DNA of 64,000 nt, from positions 682,001-746,000 of the forward strand of contig JAUWGH010000001.1 in the NCBI GenBank assembly GCA_030606485.1, in the 5' to 3' direction. The first letter of the stretch is position 1. Each line of letters begins with the position of its first letter. The position numbers and the translations under genes are program-made. Shown here piece by piece: positions 5,719-17,860 of this stretch. The DNA is from Promethearchaeota archaeon. Lineage in GTDB: Archaea > Asgardarchaeota > Lokiarchaeia > Sigyniarchaeales > SOKP01. The notes below the pieces were generated by a model. That model was given only the letters and a program-made list of their open reading frames with translations. It was not told the DNA's origin and made no database searches.

Positions 5719-6417
5719 ATGGATATTTTAAAATTTTCAGAAGATTTAGTGAATAGTGATATAAAATTATCTTTAAGTTATATTATTTTTAATGATATAC
5801 CGGTTAAAATGGAGCATTCTCAAAAATTAGATAATTATATATCTGAAATTTCAAAAAAAGTTAAGGATAGTTACACTCTTGAAACAATTAAAGATAATGA
5901 GATTATTCGAAAATATCGAGATTTTAATTGGCATTATCTAAAAATTGACCCAACGAAGATTAGACCATCTGCTGAGGCATTGATAAGAAGAATTTTGAGA
6001 GATAAGAAAATTCCTCAGATCTCTAACATTGTTGATGTGTATAATTGGGTTTCAATAGAAACGTTGATTCCCATAGGTGCCTATGATTTTGATGTTTTAA
6101 AATATCCGATTATTGTGAGATATTCTAAAGAAAATGAACAGTTTGTGCAATTAGGGGGTAAAGTAATCTTATTAAAAGGAAAAGAGATTATTCTTGTAGA
6201 TGCTTCAAATAGAGTAATTTTCCAATATCCTTATAGAGATGCAGATTTCAGTAAAGTAACAAACAAAACAAAAAATCTATTACTAATTTCTTATGGTGTA
6301 CCAGGAATATCAATAGAATTATTAGAGAATTCTTTAAAGAAATTTAATTACGTGCTTGAAATAATTTCCGATACCCAATTTTCTAGTTCAGAAATAAAAA
6401 AAATAAAAAATTATTAA
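5719..6417 (+). CDS. Free-standing B3/B4 tRNA-binding-domain protein
   Basis: This 232-aa protein resembles the B3/B4 domain that phenylalanyl-tRNA synthetase beta uses for editing, here as a stand-alone protein (COG3382-like). Family-like stretches include RPSAEALIRRILR (about residues 92-104), the NWVSIETLIPIGAYD region and LGGKVILLKGKEIILVD. Stand-alone members are generally viewed as possible trans-editing or amino-acid-binding factors. The synthetase itself is not in this window. It is convergent with the small zinc ribbon that follows. Confidence 0.75.
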   Translation: MDILKFSEDLVNSDIKLSLSYIIFNDIPVKMEHSQKLDNYISEISKKVKDSYTLETIKDNEIIRKYRDFNWHYLKIDPTKIRPSAEALIRRILRDKKIPQISNIVDVYNWVSIETLIPIGAYDFDVLKYPIIVRYSKENEQFVQLGGKVILLKGKEIILVDASNRVIFQYPYRDADFSKVTNKTKNLLLISYGVPGISIELLENSLKKFNYVLEIISDTQFSSSEIKKIKNY

Positions 6418-12747: not shown

Positions 12748-15279
12748 TTAAAGTTTTAATTCTGCTTTAATGTAATTCTCATTTTTCTCTTGAATGGTTA
12801 CATTTTTATCATTTATGAGAATTGATGTAATTTCTAATATAGTTGGTATAAAAACCAGAATTTTAGAAACTTTTTTGCTAATTTCTATCTTAATTGATTT
12901 GTCCTTCAGTTCTGCTTTAATATTAATGATTTCTTCATCATCTATGATAGTATATTCAATTTTGTCTGTTTCATTTCGAGGCGTTATATATAAGGTTAAA
13001 GTATCCAAAGGTTTTTCTTCAACATATTGTATCACCGGTCCAAGTGGTAGGATCGTCCCCCCTTTAATAAAGAACGGAACCTTACTAATATCACAAACAT
13101 AGTCAATCCATTTGGGACCACAATATCTCTCTAAAGACCAATAATCATACCATTCTCCAGCGGGAATGTAGATTTTTCTTGAACTTTTTTTGGTTAAAAT
13201 GGGTGCAATGAGTAAATTTCTCCCAAAGAGAAATTCATCTTCAATGTTATATGTGGTGGGATCTTTATCAAATTCAAGTATTAAAGGATATAACATAGGA
13301 AAACCGTGCTCAGATATATAATGGGCTTCTGTGTAAATATAAGGCAATAATTGATATCTTAAATTCAACATATCTCGTGTTATTTTTTGAGCTTCTTTTG
13401 AATAATTCCATGGTTCTCGATAGCGAGGAGGGTTCCCATGGAATCTTATATGTGAATTGAAAATGCTAAATTGAGTCCATCGAATGTAGGCTTCGTCTGT
13501 AGGACTTATAATAAAACCCCCTACATCTTGGCTCCAGTAAGAAAAGCCTGAAAGACCAAGACTTAAGCCACCACGTAAAATACTTAACATACCTTCAATA
13601 GCACTTGAAGAATCTCCCGACCAATGTACTGGGTATCGTTGGGAGCCAGCATATCCGCTTCTCGCCCAAATAATGCCTTTACCATAAAATTCTTTAGTTG
13701 CTTCAAATGCTGCCTTTTGATACAATAATGGAAACAAATTATGCATCTCCCTACCATTATATTTTGAAAATTCTTGATGTGGCTCAATTATCTCACCAAA
13801 ATCAGTTTTAATAACGGCCGCTCCTAACTCAAAGAGATTTTTAAGTTTGTTTTGATACCATTTGATTAGATCAGGGTTTGAGAAATCTAATACAGCAGCT
13901 GGTTGGAGAAGAAAAGAAAAGGCACCATGATTTTTTGCTAAAATACCTAGCTTTTTTGCTTCTTTATATTGATACTTGGGGGATTTAAAAATATATGGGG
14001 TTTGCCATAAGGATGTTTTAAAACCCATTTCTTTTAGGTTATCCATCATTGCTTTTGGATCAGGAAATCTTTCATTATCAAAATTCCAATCACATTCCCA
14101 ATCCCCCTTAAACCACCCTGTATCTATATGTATAACATCACATGGATATTTCATTTCTCGTAATTTTTTTGCTATTTCAAGAACTTCATCTTGTTTACGG
14201 TAACTTATTCTTGACATCCACATACCAAACGACCATTTTGGAGGTACTTCTGCCTTACCTGTTAAGTCAGTATATTTCCCAAGAATTGTTTTTAGTGAAG
14301 GACCATAAAAGAAAAAATAATCAATTAAGCTCCCCTCTATTCCCATCATTATTTTACAGGTTTCACGAGTTCCAACCCAAAATGTGATTGGTTTGCTCTC
14401 ATTTATATATACTCCATAGCCACGAGTACTCATGAAAAAAGGAATATTCTTATATGTCCTCCCCGATGAATTACCCATGCCATCCGCATGCCATAGAGTA
14501 AAAGTTTGTCCCATCTTATTAAGTGGCCCAAATCTCTCCCCAAAACCATATATTGCCTCCCCAGGATAAGTTACAAATGTTTCTATTCCATACATTCTCT
14601 TTTTCTTCTTAAAATAAACAAAACCTAAAGGATATGAATCAACTGTTCCGATAAATTCATTCTTTGAGGAACCACTCGATTCTGTAATTATATTTCCTGT
14701 TATATCAAGAATTTCTATCCGAAAAAAGGCTTTAAAAATTTTTAAAGATAATAATTCAGTCTTGATTAGATAATATTCTTCTTTATCTTCTAATTCGGTT
14801 TTCAAATTGAGATCAGTAATATCCTGATAGATCATTGGAGTTGAATGTTCTGGAATTACATCTCCTTTAATACATCGAACTCGATAAATACCATCTTGAA
14901 TAAAGTCAATTTCCAATGTAAGTATTGTTGGTTTGCTACCTAATTTTGGAACTTCATATTCTTCTAAGAAATCTTCTGGAATTTCTTTTCGTATATATAT
15001 ATTATAAGCTTTACAAGAAAAAATGAAATTGTTTCCCCGTTGTTCCTTTAACTCAACTTCTTTAATACTATATGCTTTTTTATTTAATAATTTCTTGAAA
15101 AAAGTAAAAACATCAAACGGCGGATCTGCAAAATAGTCGAGAGGATGATCTGAAAGCCCCAGATTTAGAGCTGGTTCCGAATAAAAGCTATACCTTTTTC
15201 TTTTAAAAGAAAACGGATGTTTCAATCGTTCTTTAAGATAAAAAAGAAAGAGTTTTAAAATATTAATTTGTAATGCCAA
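12748..15279 (-). CDS. Glycoside hydrolase family 31 (alpha-xylosidase/alpha-glucosidase type)
   Basis: This 843-aa GH31 retaining alpha-glycosidase has a nucleophile at Asp493 in KTDFGE, a form typical of YicI-like alpha-xylosidases, and a probable acid/base at Asp556 in WSGDSSS. Substrate-pocket segments IHIDTGWF and DFSNPD are also present. An N-terminal beta-sandwich, a GH31 barrel (about 345-670) and C-terminal beta domains fit the family length. No signal peptide is evident, so it is probably cytoplasmic. The start is TTG at 15277-15279. The first seven codons plus upstream DNA occur again at 16755-16822. No sugar transporter is adjacent. Confidence 0.92.
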   Translation of the reverse strand: MALQINILKLFLFYLKERLKHPFSFKRKRYSFYSEPALNLGLSDHPLDYFADPPFDVFTFFKKLLNKKAYSIKEVELKEQRGNNFIFSCKAYNIYIRKEIPEDFLEEYEVPKLGSKPTILTLEIDFIQDGIYRVRCIKGDVIPEHSTPMIYQDITDLNLKTELEDKEEYYLIKTELLSLKIFKAFFRIEILDITGNIITESSGSSKNEFIGTVDSYPLGFVYFKKKKRMYGIETFVTYPGEAIYGFGERFGPLNKMGQTFTLWHADGMGNSSGRTYKNIPFFMSTRGYGVYINESKPITFWVGTRETCKIMMGIEGSLIDYFFFYGPSLKTILGKYTDLTGKAEVPPKWSFGMWMSRISYRKQDEVLEIAKKLREMKYPCDVIHIDTGWFKGDWECDWNFDNERFPDPKAMMDNLKEMGFKTSLWQTPYIFKSPKYQYKEAKKLGILAKNHGAFSFLLQPAAVLDFSNPDLIKWYQNKLKNLFELGAAVIKTDFGEIIEPHQEFSKYNGREMHNLFPLLYQKAAFEATKEFYGKGIIWARSGYAGSQRYPVHWSGDSSSAIEGMLSILRGGLSLGLSGFSYWSQDVGGFIISPTDEAYIRWTQFSIFNSHIRFHGNPPRYREPWNYSKEAQKITRDMLNLRYQLLPYIYTEAHYISEHGFPMLYPLILEFDKDPTTYNIEDEFLFGRNLLIAPILTKKSSRKIYIPAGEWYDYWSLERYCGPKWIDYVCDISKVPFFIKGGTILPLGPVIQYVEEKPLDTLTLYITPRNETDKIEYTIIDDEEIINIKAELKDKSIKIEISKKVSKILVFIPTILEITSILINDKNVTIQEKNENYIKAELKL

Positions 15280-15324
15280 TTTCTTTTACCCCAATTATTT
15301 TATTGAATTCATCTATTCTTTACT
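15257..15324. repeat. 68-bp direct repeat, copy 1 (GH31 5' edge)
   Basis: This segment covers the first codons of the GH31 gene and its upstream DNA. It recurs at 16755-16822 in the same orientation, with about 64 of 68 bases identical. Only this copy is attached to a full gene. The two copies frame the CopD-like gene and its HTH_10 regulator. Confidence 0.85.
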
Positions 15325-15442
15325 ATCAACTATTATGTTTTTTTAAGATTAATTAATAACCCCTTTTCAATTTTTTTAGAAAAAAGAATAACTCAGTATA
15401 GAACGGTTTAATTAGAATAATTAAATGGAGAAAAGAGTTTCC

Positions 15443-15456
15443 CTTTACGGGTAAAG
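15443..15456. promoter_or_regulatory. Shared upstream motif before the CopD-like gene (CTTTAC-GG-GTAAAG)
   Basis: This is a 14-base near-palindrome with 6-base arms and a GG centre. The first 12 bases recur exactly at 16055-16066 before the HTH_10 regulator gene. It lies just upstream of a TATA-like ATTATATTA at 15462-15470. The position suits an upstream activator or regulator site, probably recognised by the HTH_10 protein. Confidence 0.6.
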
Positions 15457-15526
15457 TAATAATTATATTACTTAATTATCCATACTAATTAACTATACAT
15501 TTTAATTGACTATAGATGTGATCCTT

Positions 15527-16033
15527 ATGGCTCCTATATCTGCTATAATTGCTCCAGTGATGATTAACTTCCTCCACAATATATTTACTGTTTTGTGGAT
15601 TGGGGGTATGTTGACGCTTGCATTTACCGTTTTACCTGCAATCAGGAAAGTTCTTGGTAAATCCAAAGAAACTCAAGCATTGAATTCTTTGATAAAGAAA
15701 AAACTTAGTGTGTTAACCTACATCAGTATAGTTGGATTGATAATTACCGGGTTACTTATGTCTAATAAAGCCGTATTATCTGGGTTATCCACGGGCTTCT
15801 TAAGCTTTGGAAATGAATACTCGACCCTTATGAGTATCAAACATTTGTTATACTTCGTGATGATATTCTTAAGTTTGTTCCGCAGTCAGTTTGTGGATAA
15901 AGTTAAGAAATTTGCTCCAGAACAGAAACAGAAGCTTAATATGCTCACTCTAATGCTGAATATTCTTGCGGGATTAGCGGTTCTGTTCCTCAGTTCATAT
16001 GTTAGCGTACTTGCAGCATTACCAACACCTTAA
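15527..16033 (+). CDS. CopD-like four-helix membrane protein
   Basis: This protein of about 168 aa has four transmembrane helices (roughly residues 10-35, 55-80, 100-120 and 135-162). The first helix carries HNIFTVLWIGGM, resembling CopD/DUF4149-type membrane domains in which a histidine precedes a W-x-GG motif. A second His (IKHLLYF) sits at the start of helix three. These histidines could bind heme or copper, which is inference. I use the ATG at 15527; a TTG at 15506 would add seven residues. It is paired with an HTH_10 regulator and shares an upstream 12-mer with it. Its codon use looks richer in G+C than its neighbours. Confidence 0.65.
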   Translation: MAPISAIIAPVMINFLHNIFTVLWIGGMLTLAFTVLPAIRKVLGKSKETQALNSLIKKKLSVLTYISIVGLIITGLLMSNKAVLSGLSTGFLSFGNEYSTLMSIKHLLYFVMIFLSLFRSQFVDKVKKFAPEQKQKLNMLTLMLNILAGLAVLFLSSYVSVLAALPTP

Positions 16034-16054
16034 AAATTTTTTTTTATTTTTTCA

Positions 16055-16068
16055 CTTTACGGGTAAGG
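16055..16068. promoter_or_regulatory. Shared upstream motif before the HTH_10 regulator
   Basis: CTTTACGGGTAA repeats exactly the 12-mer found at 15443-15454, about 30 bases before the regulator's ATG. Its occurrence before both genes of the module suggests a common binding site and autoregulation. Confidence 0.6.
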
Positions 16069-16097
16069 TTTTTCTAAAAAGATAATTTTCTTTTATT

Positions 16098-16739
16098 ATG
16101 CCTCAAGATATTGTTCAAATTAGGCTTGAAATAGACATCCCTCATGATAAATGGCTATTTAAATTTGTCGAAAAATATCCCGAATTAAATTTTTATATCC
16201 TATCTAAGTTTCTTATAGAGGATAATGCTGGGATAACTTTATTCCAAATAAGGGGGCTATCTGTTAAACAATTTATTTCAGATTTTAAGGAACAATTAAC
16301 TAAGAATTCTTCCCAAATCTTATTTGAAGGAAATGATCTTGTAATTATGAATATTAGAGTGATTGATCCATGGATTTTAAACACATTGATAAAAACTGAG
16401 CTTTTAATATTATATCCAATACTAGTAAAAGAAGGTAAAATAAGAATAGAAACTATTACTAATCGTTCTAAAGTTGATGATTTCTTAACAGAATTAGAAA
16501 AAAAAGGCATAAAAGCATCCATAGGAAGAATAGGATACAGCTTTAAATCTACTTTACTCACCCAAAGACAAAATGAAATATTAAATATTGCTTATAAAAA
16601 CGGATATTTTGACATTCCAAGAAAAATTTCATTAAGCGAATTTGCTAATAATCTAAATATATCTAAATCTGCTCTTTCTGAAACTTTGAGACGAATTTTT
16701 AAAAGACTTTCTAATAATTATCTTAAATCTAACAATTGA
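16098..16739 (+). CDS. HTH_10 (Bat-like) transcriptional regulator
   Basis: This 213-aa regulator has a C-terminal helix-turn-helix of the bacterio-opsin-activator type (about residues 155-205). Its diagnostic order is LTQRQNEILNIAYKNGYFDIP, then LSEFANNLNISKSALSETLRR. The N-terminal 150 residues form an alpha/beta region without a recognisable PAS or GAF domain, possibly a ligand-binding domain. It is likely an activator or repressor of the preceding CopD-like gene and of itself, given the shared 12-mer. Only 64 bases separate the two genes. Confidence 0.85.
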   Translation: MPQDIVQIRLEIDIPHDKWLFKFVEKYPELNFYILSKFLIEDNAGITLFQIRGLSVKQFISDFKEQLTKNSSQILFEGNDLVIMNIRVIDPWILNTLIKTELLILYPILVKEGKIRIETITNRSKVDDFLTELEKKGIKASIGRIGYSFKSTLLTQRQNEILNIAYKNGYFDIPRKISLSEFANNLNISKSALSETLRRIFKRLSNNYLKSNN

Positions 16740-16754
16740 ACCACAATACAATAT

Positions 16755-16822
16755 AAAATATTAATTTGTAATGCCAATTTCTTTTACCTTAATTATTTTA
16801 TTGAATTCAATTATTCTTTACT
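16755..16822. repeat. 68-bp direct repeat, copy 2 (orphan GH31 5' edge)
   Basis: This copy matches 15257-15324 at about 64 of 68 positions. On the minus strand it would encode only the first seven residues of the GH31 protein before homology ends, so it is a detached gene-edge fragment lying upstream of nadA. Confidence 0.85.
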
Positions 16823-16897: not shown

Positions 16898-17860
16898 ATG
16901 ATGATTCAGACTAATCAAGAGATACAAGAGAGCCAAAAGTTAATATTAAATCTTAAAAAAGAGAAAGATGTTACAATTCTTGCTCATTATTATCAAACCT
17001 TGGAAATTCAAGAGATCGCAGATTATGTAGGAGATTCTTTGGGACTTTCAAAAATTGCCCGAGATCATACCAATACAAAGAATATCATTTTTGCTGGAGT
17101 TCTTTTTATGGCAGAAACGGCTTCCATTTTAAATCCCGCAAAAAGAGTGCTAATGCCAGATAAACAAGCCGGTTGTCCTTTAGCATCATTTCTTGATGGA
17201 AATACAGTGAATACGTATAAGGAAAAATATCCAGGGGTGCCAACAGTTGTTTATATTAATTCTACGGCTGAAACAAAAGCAGAAACCGATGTTGTATGTA
17301 CATCTTCAAATGCAATTAAGGTAGTACAGGGAATACAAAATGAATTTAAATCTAATAAAGTTTTATTTGGACCAGATGAGAATCTTGCTGATTATGTGAA
17401 ACAAAAAACAAGGATAAATATCATCAATTTGCCAGATGAAGGATTTTGCTATGTTCATAATGTCATTAAAGATTTGGATGTTATTAAAGTTAAAAATGAA
17501 CATCCAAATGCATTAATCACGGTACATCCAGAATGTAAAAGGGAGGTAAGAGAGCTTTCTGATCATATAGGTTCCACTAAGGGAATGTATGATTACGTTA
17601 AAAAAAATGCTTCAAAGAAAAATGAATTTATAATTGGTACTGAGCTTGGATTCGTCCAACGAGTTCAAAAAGATTTTCCAAATAATAAAATTTATCCCAT
17701 AAACGAAAATTTTATTTGTAGAAATATGAAACTTTCTACTTTAGAAAAAATATTTAATTTGCTAAATAATTTGAATAATGATAAATATAAAGTCACAGTA
17801 CCAGATAATATTGCAAATAAAGCAAGAATCAGTCTTGAAAAAATGTTAAAATATTCCTAA
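16898..17860 (+). CDS. nadA: Quinolinate synthase
   Basis: This 320-aa quinolinate synthase condenses iminoaspartate with dihydroxyacetone phosphate in NAD biosynthesis. Three 4Fe-4S cluster cysteines are visible at about Cys93 (AGCPLASF), Cys184 (GFCYVH) and Cys274 (FICRNMK). Other conserved segments are ILAHYYQ, GDSLGLS and VYINSTAETKA. The length is typical. The second ATG of an ATGATG pair could also be the start. No aspartate oxidase/dehydrogenase or nadC gene is adjacent. Confidence 0.95.
   Translation: MMIQTNQEIQESQKLILNLKKEKDVTILAHYYQTLEIQEIADYVGDSLGLSKIARDHTNTKNIIFAGVLFMAETASILNPAKRVLMPDKQAGCPLASFLDGNTVNTYKEKYPGVPTVVYINSTAETKAETDVVCTSSNAIKVVQGIQNEFKSNKVLFGPDENLADYVKQKTRINIINLPDEGFCYVHNVIKDLDVIKVKNEHPNALITVHPECKREVRELSDHIGSTKGMYDYVKKNASKKNEFIIGTELGFVQRVQKDFPNNKIYPINENFICRNMKLSTLEKIFNLLNNLNNDKYKVTVPDNIANKARISLEKMLKYS

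Follow-up and report, generated by a model that had tools for sequence, protein, structure and literature searches.

A CopD-like/HTH_10 gene pair between two copies of a GH31 gene edge in a Lokiarchaeal genome, and a second insert that begins with the same leader

Target-primed copying by non-LTR elements gives target duplications that are long and variable in length. Insertions of non-LTR retrotransposons resemble the ones described here in these duplications and in possible template switching at microhomology, but the inserts described here lack an RNA-type 3' tail, have kept their promoters and encode no element protein. A second point of reference is the DNA that fills double-strand breaks. 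Repair-mediated duplications and filler DNA at such breaks were described in vertebrates, where the donors lie nearby on the chromosome (PMC2671141). Eukaryotic filler DNA (PMC2671141) shares with the present case, as we read it, foreign or distant DNA at a break, composite inserts, joints with possible microhomology and the absence of an element-encoded enzyme, whereas here the setting is archaeal, the donor is another genus, whole genes were inserted and one leader is common to two inserts. Among Asgard archaea, Aloposons and other mobile elements of Heimdallarchaea use tRNA genes as integration sites and code for giant proteins (PMC8813620). They have gene mobility in Asgard archaea in common with our case, but the insert described below has neither a tRNA gene nor a giant protein.

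Gene gain in Asgard archaea bears on ideas about the origin of eukaryotes, and such gains are rarely caught with the empty site and the donor lineage together. We describe two gains of apparently functional genes at almost base resolution: three relatives show the empty sites, the donor genus is at hand, and the target duplications measure 69 and 33 bp. What is new is that a separate FprA insertion from the same donor neighbourhood has its own 33-bp duplication and the same leader. This common leader makes a specific hypothesis on the mechanism testable.

The duplicated GH31 edge and its empty sites

Positions given without a contig are those of the window, the whole stretch of 64,000 nucleotides that was analysed. 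The module lies between two native genes, with the following arrangement:

12748-15279, minus strand: GH31 glycoside hydrolase, 843 aa, intact here and decayed in congeners
15256-15324, plus strand: left copy of the target duplication, native here as the 5' edge of GH31 (the first 8 codons, MALQINIL, and the 45 bp before them)
16754-16822, plus strand: right copy of the target duplication, native sequence upstream of nadA
16898-17860, plus strand: nadA, right neighbour of the insert

By repeat search, the two copies of this 69-bp direct repeat are identical at 65 of 69 positions (94%) with a spacing of 1498. The repeat had already been recognised in a sequence-only reading of this DNA, one base short (68 bp, about 64 of 68 matching). 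That reading took the first copy for the live 5' edge of GH31, as the intact gene bears out, and the second for an orphan edge of seven codons. The orphan edge stands, with eight codons rather than seven; resemblance to GH31 then stops, and the copy ends 75 bp before nadA. Full copies of the 69-bp sequence number two in the 3.75-Mb genome (E values of 6e-30 and 2e-24), and the next match is 23 bp long (E 8e-4). A scan of 905 kb of the same contig, with thresholds of 25 bp for length, 88% for identity and 12 kb for distance, returned only about 13 comparable direct-repeat pairs, several of them coding or tandem paralogues, and the 69-bp pair is therefore not attributable to chance.

The insert proper spans the 1,429 bp that separate the copies (15325-16753), to which one duplicated stretch of 69 bp is added, in agreement with the earlier estimate that about 1.4 kb had been placed between a gene and a duplicate of its edge. 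Also in line with that reading, there is no recombinase gene within or adjoining the module. A tRNA or RNA element that could have served as target was not found at the module, nor were terminal repeats (terminal inverted repeats were checked by eye), and neither the 69-bp repeat nor the leader forms a stable hairpin beyond what shuffled sequences give.

Three genomes of the same genus (G001, G002 and G003) have the GH31 edge, a single 69-bp copy and nadA, with the module absent, which is exactly the empty site that the sequence-only reading had predicted. In flank alignments, the congeners' left flank continues like the left copy here and their right flank like the right copy, so that the insert is bounded exactly by both copies. 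These relatives do not carry the module. Moreover, the relatives' single copy is GH31 edge and upstream sequence of nadA at once, which argues against the second copy being a conserved promoter element of nadA. The same three genomes have no CopD-like gene, and for HTH_10 they have at most a distant paralogue (36%). In a fourth congener, G004, which is 69% complete, the locus was not matched.

The copies also give an indication of age. Compared with the relatives, copy 1 carries three private differences and copy 2 carries one, and none is shared. Because the copies differ by about 6% in this manner, the insertion is old and probably dates from early on the branch of this species. Synonymous divergence of nadA is 0.04 from G003 and 0.07 from G002, comparable with the divergence between the copies. 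As a rough estimate from few sites, the age of the duplication is probably close to that of the species split. The four private differences likewise make active excision, and with it the excised circles that the earlier reading had proposed to look for, unlikely. The 69-bp repeats look like a fossil rather than an active excision site.

Several other changes were seen around this locus. The GH31 gene has decayed through three different deletions in the three congeners (L117, L118, L119): about 50 codons are left in G001, two end fragments in G002 and a broken copy in G003, and the G001 deletion has a 3-bp microhomology. The nadA gene of G001 (L117 7358-8317) is strongly divergent from the one here (dS 0.53) between flanks of about 91% identity, a pattern that suggests that the allele was replaced in one lineage. 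Elsewhere on the contig, about 36 kb of this genome (G000:C10:75859-112215) are missing at the matching place in G001.

The gene pair and its donor lineage

From left to right, the insert contains the following features:

15325-15390, plus strand: insert leader; positions 15339-15390 match the beginning of the FprA insert (C10:147773-147824, minus strand) at 94%
15391-16753, plus strand: stretch of donor origin, with 91-96% DNA identity over nearly its full length to Lokiarchaeota of genus g2
15443-15456, no strand: perfect inverted repeat CTTTAC-GG-GTAAAG before the CopD-like gene, a probable operator
15527-16033, plus strand: CopD-like four-helix membrane protein, start uncertain (ATG 15527 or GTG 15518; the longest reading frame begins at TTG 15506)
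16055-16068, no strand: second palindrome, CTTTACGGGTAAGG, one mismatch from symmetry, before HTH_10
16098-16739, plus strand: HTH_10 regulator, 213 aa (PF04967, 65.9 bits, above the gathering cut-off of 23.1)

The membrane protein stays below the family threshold for CopD (33.9 bits with NF033808, cut-off 195). PF05425 was matched in four of eight relatives of the protein (best E value 7.9e-9), not in the window protein itself, and we call it CopD-like by resemblance only. Each of the two genes has CTTTAC-GG-GTAAAG, or a copy with one mismatch, in front of it, from which it is a natural inference that the two form a predicted autoregulated pair. HTH_10 would bind CTTTACGGGTAAAG at both promoters and control the CopD-like protein in a redox or NO/O2-stress response. 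The operator core CTTTACGGGTAAR has three occurrences in the genome, two of which are in this insert. The third, at C8:264614, was set aside as an operator, as it lies inside a coding frame of 215 aa and is uninformative. In genome G023, the promoter of a related HTH_10 gene also contains the operator core. To judge from the neighbours FprA, cupin and NapH-like, the cassette is probably redox-related. Relatives of HTH_10 are also found divergent beside a gene for a NapH-like 4Fe-4S membrane protein (L123 6286-7880 in G023; L127, L128), and a cupin gene adjoins HTH_10 in G023 and G010; the arrangement of HTH_10, NapH-like and cupin genes suggests a redox-stress regulon.

The closest relatives of the pair belong to another genus of the same family, g2, and the named metagenome-assembled genomes (MAGs) that have it are 33X4, HM4_B22, CSMAG_2258 and ABR02. 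Depending on the genome, identity to g2 starts between 15381 and 15439, and it ends at 16743-16763, shortly past the HTH_10 stop. In the g2 locus the two genes follow each other in the order found here, and the same palindrome precedes CopD. The locus differs in that the pair stands there in a conserved chromosomal array, ordered nfi - FprA flavodiiron - CopD-like - HTH_10 - cupin with variable genes interspersed, whereas here it stands alone between GH31 and nadA. The insert differs by at least 4% from every sampled donor, and dN/dS against the g2 relatives is 0.2-0.4, which fits a pair that has been kept functional.

Because the congeners have empty sites and the g2 relatives are so close in DNA sequence, the module is one that came by horizontal transfer and duplicated 69 bp of its target site. 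A viral origin was also considered and rejected, with no relatives of either protein and no leader match in viral contigs. The module might instead be ancestral and have been lost from the relatives by recombination between the 69-bp repeats, and direct repeats do permit such a clean loss. Loss would nevertheless have to have occurred independently at least twice among G001, G002 and G003, the FprA insert described below included, and it would leave unexplained why the closest relatives of the module are in another genus and in another context. We regard ancestral presence as very unlikely.

A second insert behind the same leader

The genome contains a second insert on the same contig, about 550 kb from the module, at G000:C10:146437-147878 (L170 6438-7879). 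It encodes an FprA-type flavodiiron protein (NF008887, 722 bits, cut-off 635), whose gene in the donors stands next to CopD-HTH_10 on the upstream side. A direct repeat of 33 bp, identical at 32 of 33 positions, flanks the insert, and the empty site is clean, with one copy, in G001, G002 and G003.

For a MAG with an estimated contamination of 4.65%, an artefact of assembly has to be considered. The locus lies inside a contig of 912 kb, the distance of the insert from every sampled donor and the four differing sites between the repeat copies argue against it, and a second insert of the same architecture is found elsewhere on the contig. An artefact is very improbable.

Both inserts begin with the same leader of 52 bp, and the copy at the FprA insert is the sole other match in the genome. 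It has the same position in both, between target duplication and cargo, and the outermost bases, 14 in one insert and 22 in the other, are less similar. A family-wide search gave no other convincing copy of comparable strength. At the corresponding position the leader is absent from the sampled donors, in which FprA is preceded by the end of nfi and CopD by the FprA-CopD spacer. That it is an ordinary donor spacer was rejected, as the plus-strand alignment was not clearly above shuffles. In the FprA insert, the outermost 20-22 bp of the leader do match the donors' spacer downstream of FprA, in reverse orientation. Part of the leader may for this reason be inverted donor spacer, and the leader would then be, at least in part, rearranged donor DNA. 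At the joints, leader and donor sequence have in common an A-rich AGAAAAA-GAATA, in DNA that is very rich in A+T. That another gene of this donor neighbourhood stands behind the same leader hints at a shared insertion route.

The two inserts also bear on classical modes of integration. A site-specific integrase or a DNA transposon, with the 69-bp repeats as att sites or target duplication, would account for a defined insert between direct repeats. The 69- and 33-bp duplications are, however, unrelated in sequence and length, and the cargo has no tRNA, recombinase or transposase. No terminal inverted repeats were seen by eye, no viral relatives in a scan for close relatives, and none of the inserts observed was a longer form that contained an integrase or a transposase. 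Such explanations fail on the unrelated, unequal duplications and the absent enzyme, and we give them very little chance. A circle that carried the pair and 69 bp of homology could have entered by a single homologous crossover (Campbell type), and this would leave the homologous stretch duplicated exactly once, in direct orientation. This circle must already have carried the GH31 edge of this genus, but at donor-type loci nothing of the kind adjoins the pair, and for the FprA insert a second circle with a different matching stretch would be needed. Such a crossover is, if anything, slightly less probable still.

Probable break repair, a possible mobile unit and other relocations of FprA

We consider it rather probable that donor DNA was captured at a staggered break whose overhangs were filled in, with break, fill-in and microhomology joining reconstructed from the sequences. 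A fragment from a g2-like Lokiarchaeon, carrying CopD-like and HTH_10 genes with their own promoters, would have been captured between GH31 and nadA. With two nicks 69 bp apart, joining of the fragment and fill-in of the overhangs would duplicate 69 bp, and through this duplication both GH31 and nadA would have kept their start regions. A fragment with FprA, from the same nfi-FprA-CopD-HTH_10 neighbourhood, would have been captured at the distant site with a 33-bp duplication. The leader would have been common to both fragments but linked, through the possible A-rich microhomology, to a different donor sequence in each, which would imply that the incoming DNA was rearranged beforehand or that templates were switched during repair.

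Target outcomes in the genus are not uniform: 69 bp gained, 33 bp gained, none, and about 430 bp replaced. The last is the FprA site of G002 (L210, G002:C104), where an FprA of 98% DNA identity sits at the spot matching window positions 5735-6164; no flanking repeat was found at this site. This variation favours repair over a transposase with a fixed stagger, and together with the possible A-rich microhomology and the composite insert it argues for capture during break repair. That long duplications are a rule of the genus was not supported. Clean indels against G001, over about 250 kb compared, mostly have little or no target duplication, a few having 19-23 bp of overlap, and the longest alignment overlaps (37 and 69 bp) are those of the two donor-derived inserts. 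A third candidate insert at C10:309375/311738 (to 311796), with 59-bp repeats of 93% identity around a 714-aa gene, was dropped because the site lacks a resolvable single-copy empty site in the relatives and is rearranged in G002 and G003.

The shared leader beside the duplication in both inserts is poorly explained by random capture, which does not predict it. It was either part of incoming DNA that had been rearranged before or added by a dedicated process. In the latter sense, the leader could mark one terminus of a mobile unit or machinery that has so far escaped recognition. Such a system, working for example by target-primed reverse-transcription copying with template switching, would move the genes next to it and produce target duplications that are long and vary in length. 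The same leader adjoining the duplication in two inserts with different cargo would agree with this, as would duplications of 69 and 33 bp, which fit target-primed copying, the presence of FprA at different places in several genomes and the one group-II-intron-type reverse transcriptase that the genome encodes, which is not linked to the inserts. Set against these points, only two copies of the leader exist in the family, the promoters and operators upstream of the genes are retained, other FprA relocations lack the leader or a flanking duplication, and the inserts encode no enzyme. A mobile unit is unlikely, though less so than the classical modes above. We give slightly less weight still to a dedicated route in Lokiarchaeota that moves single genes or small groups between and within genomes, with the leader, varying cargo, duplications of 33-69 bp and possibly a reverse transcriptase or repair polymerase acting at staggered nicks. 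The sole RVT_1 match of the genome (L296, G000:C2 near 277890) has RVT_N, RVT_1 and GIIM fused to treble-clef/CapR-like zinc-finger repeats.

Whichever way the leader arose, FprA is often relocated in the family, with varied junctions, as its different sites in this genome, G002 and G023 show. In G023 it is at yet another site, with direct repeats of 152 bp and 99% identity at its 3' end (L211 5959-6110 and 8103-8254), about 2 kb apart. These repeats enclose a gene for a 332-aa membrane protein, possibly another insert with a long duplication. G001 also has unrelated extra sequence at its counterpart of window 5735-6164, and the two cases make this spot an insertion hotspot. All FprA copies (L133 2327-4346; L170, L210, L211, L212) start at or near one common point, the tail of nfi, after which comes a strong hairpin (GATCGTTTCTAACTAAAAT...ATTTTAGAGAAACG) with a z-score of about -4.
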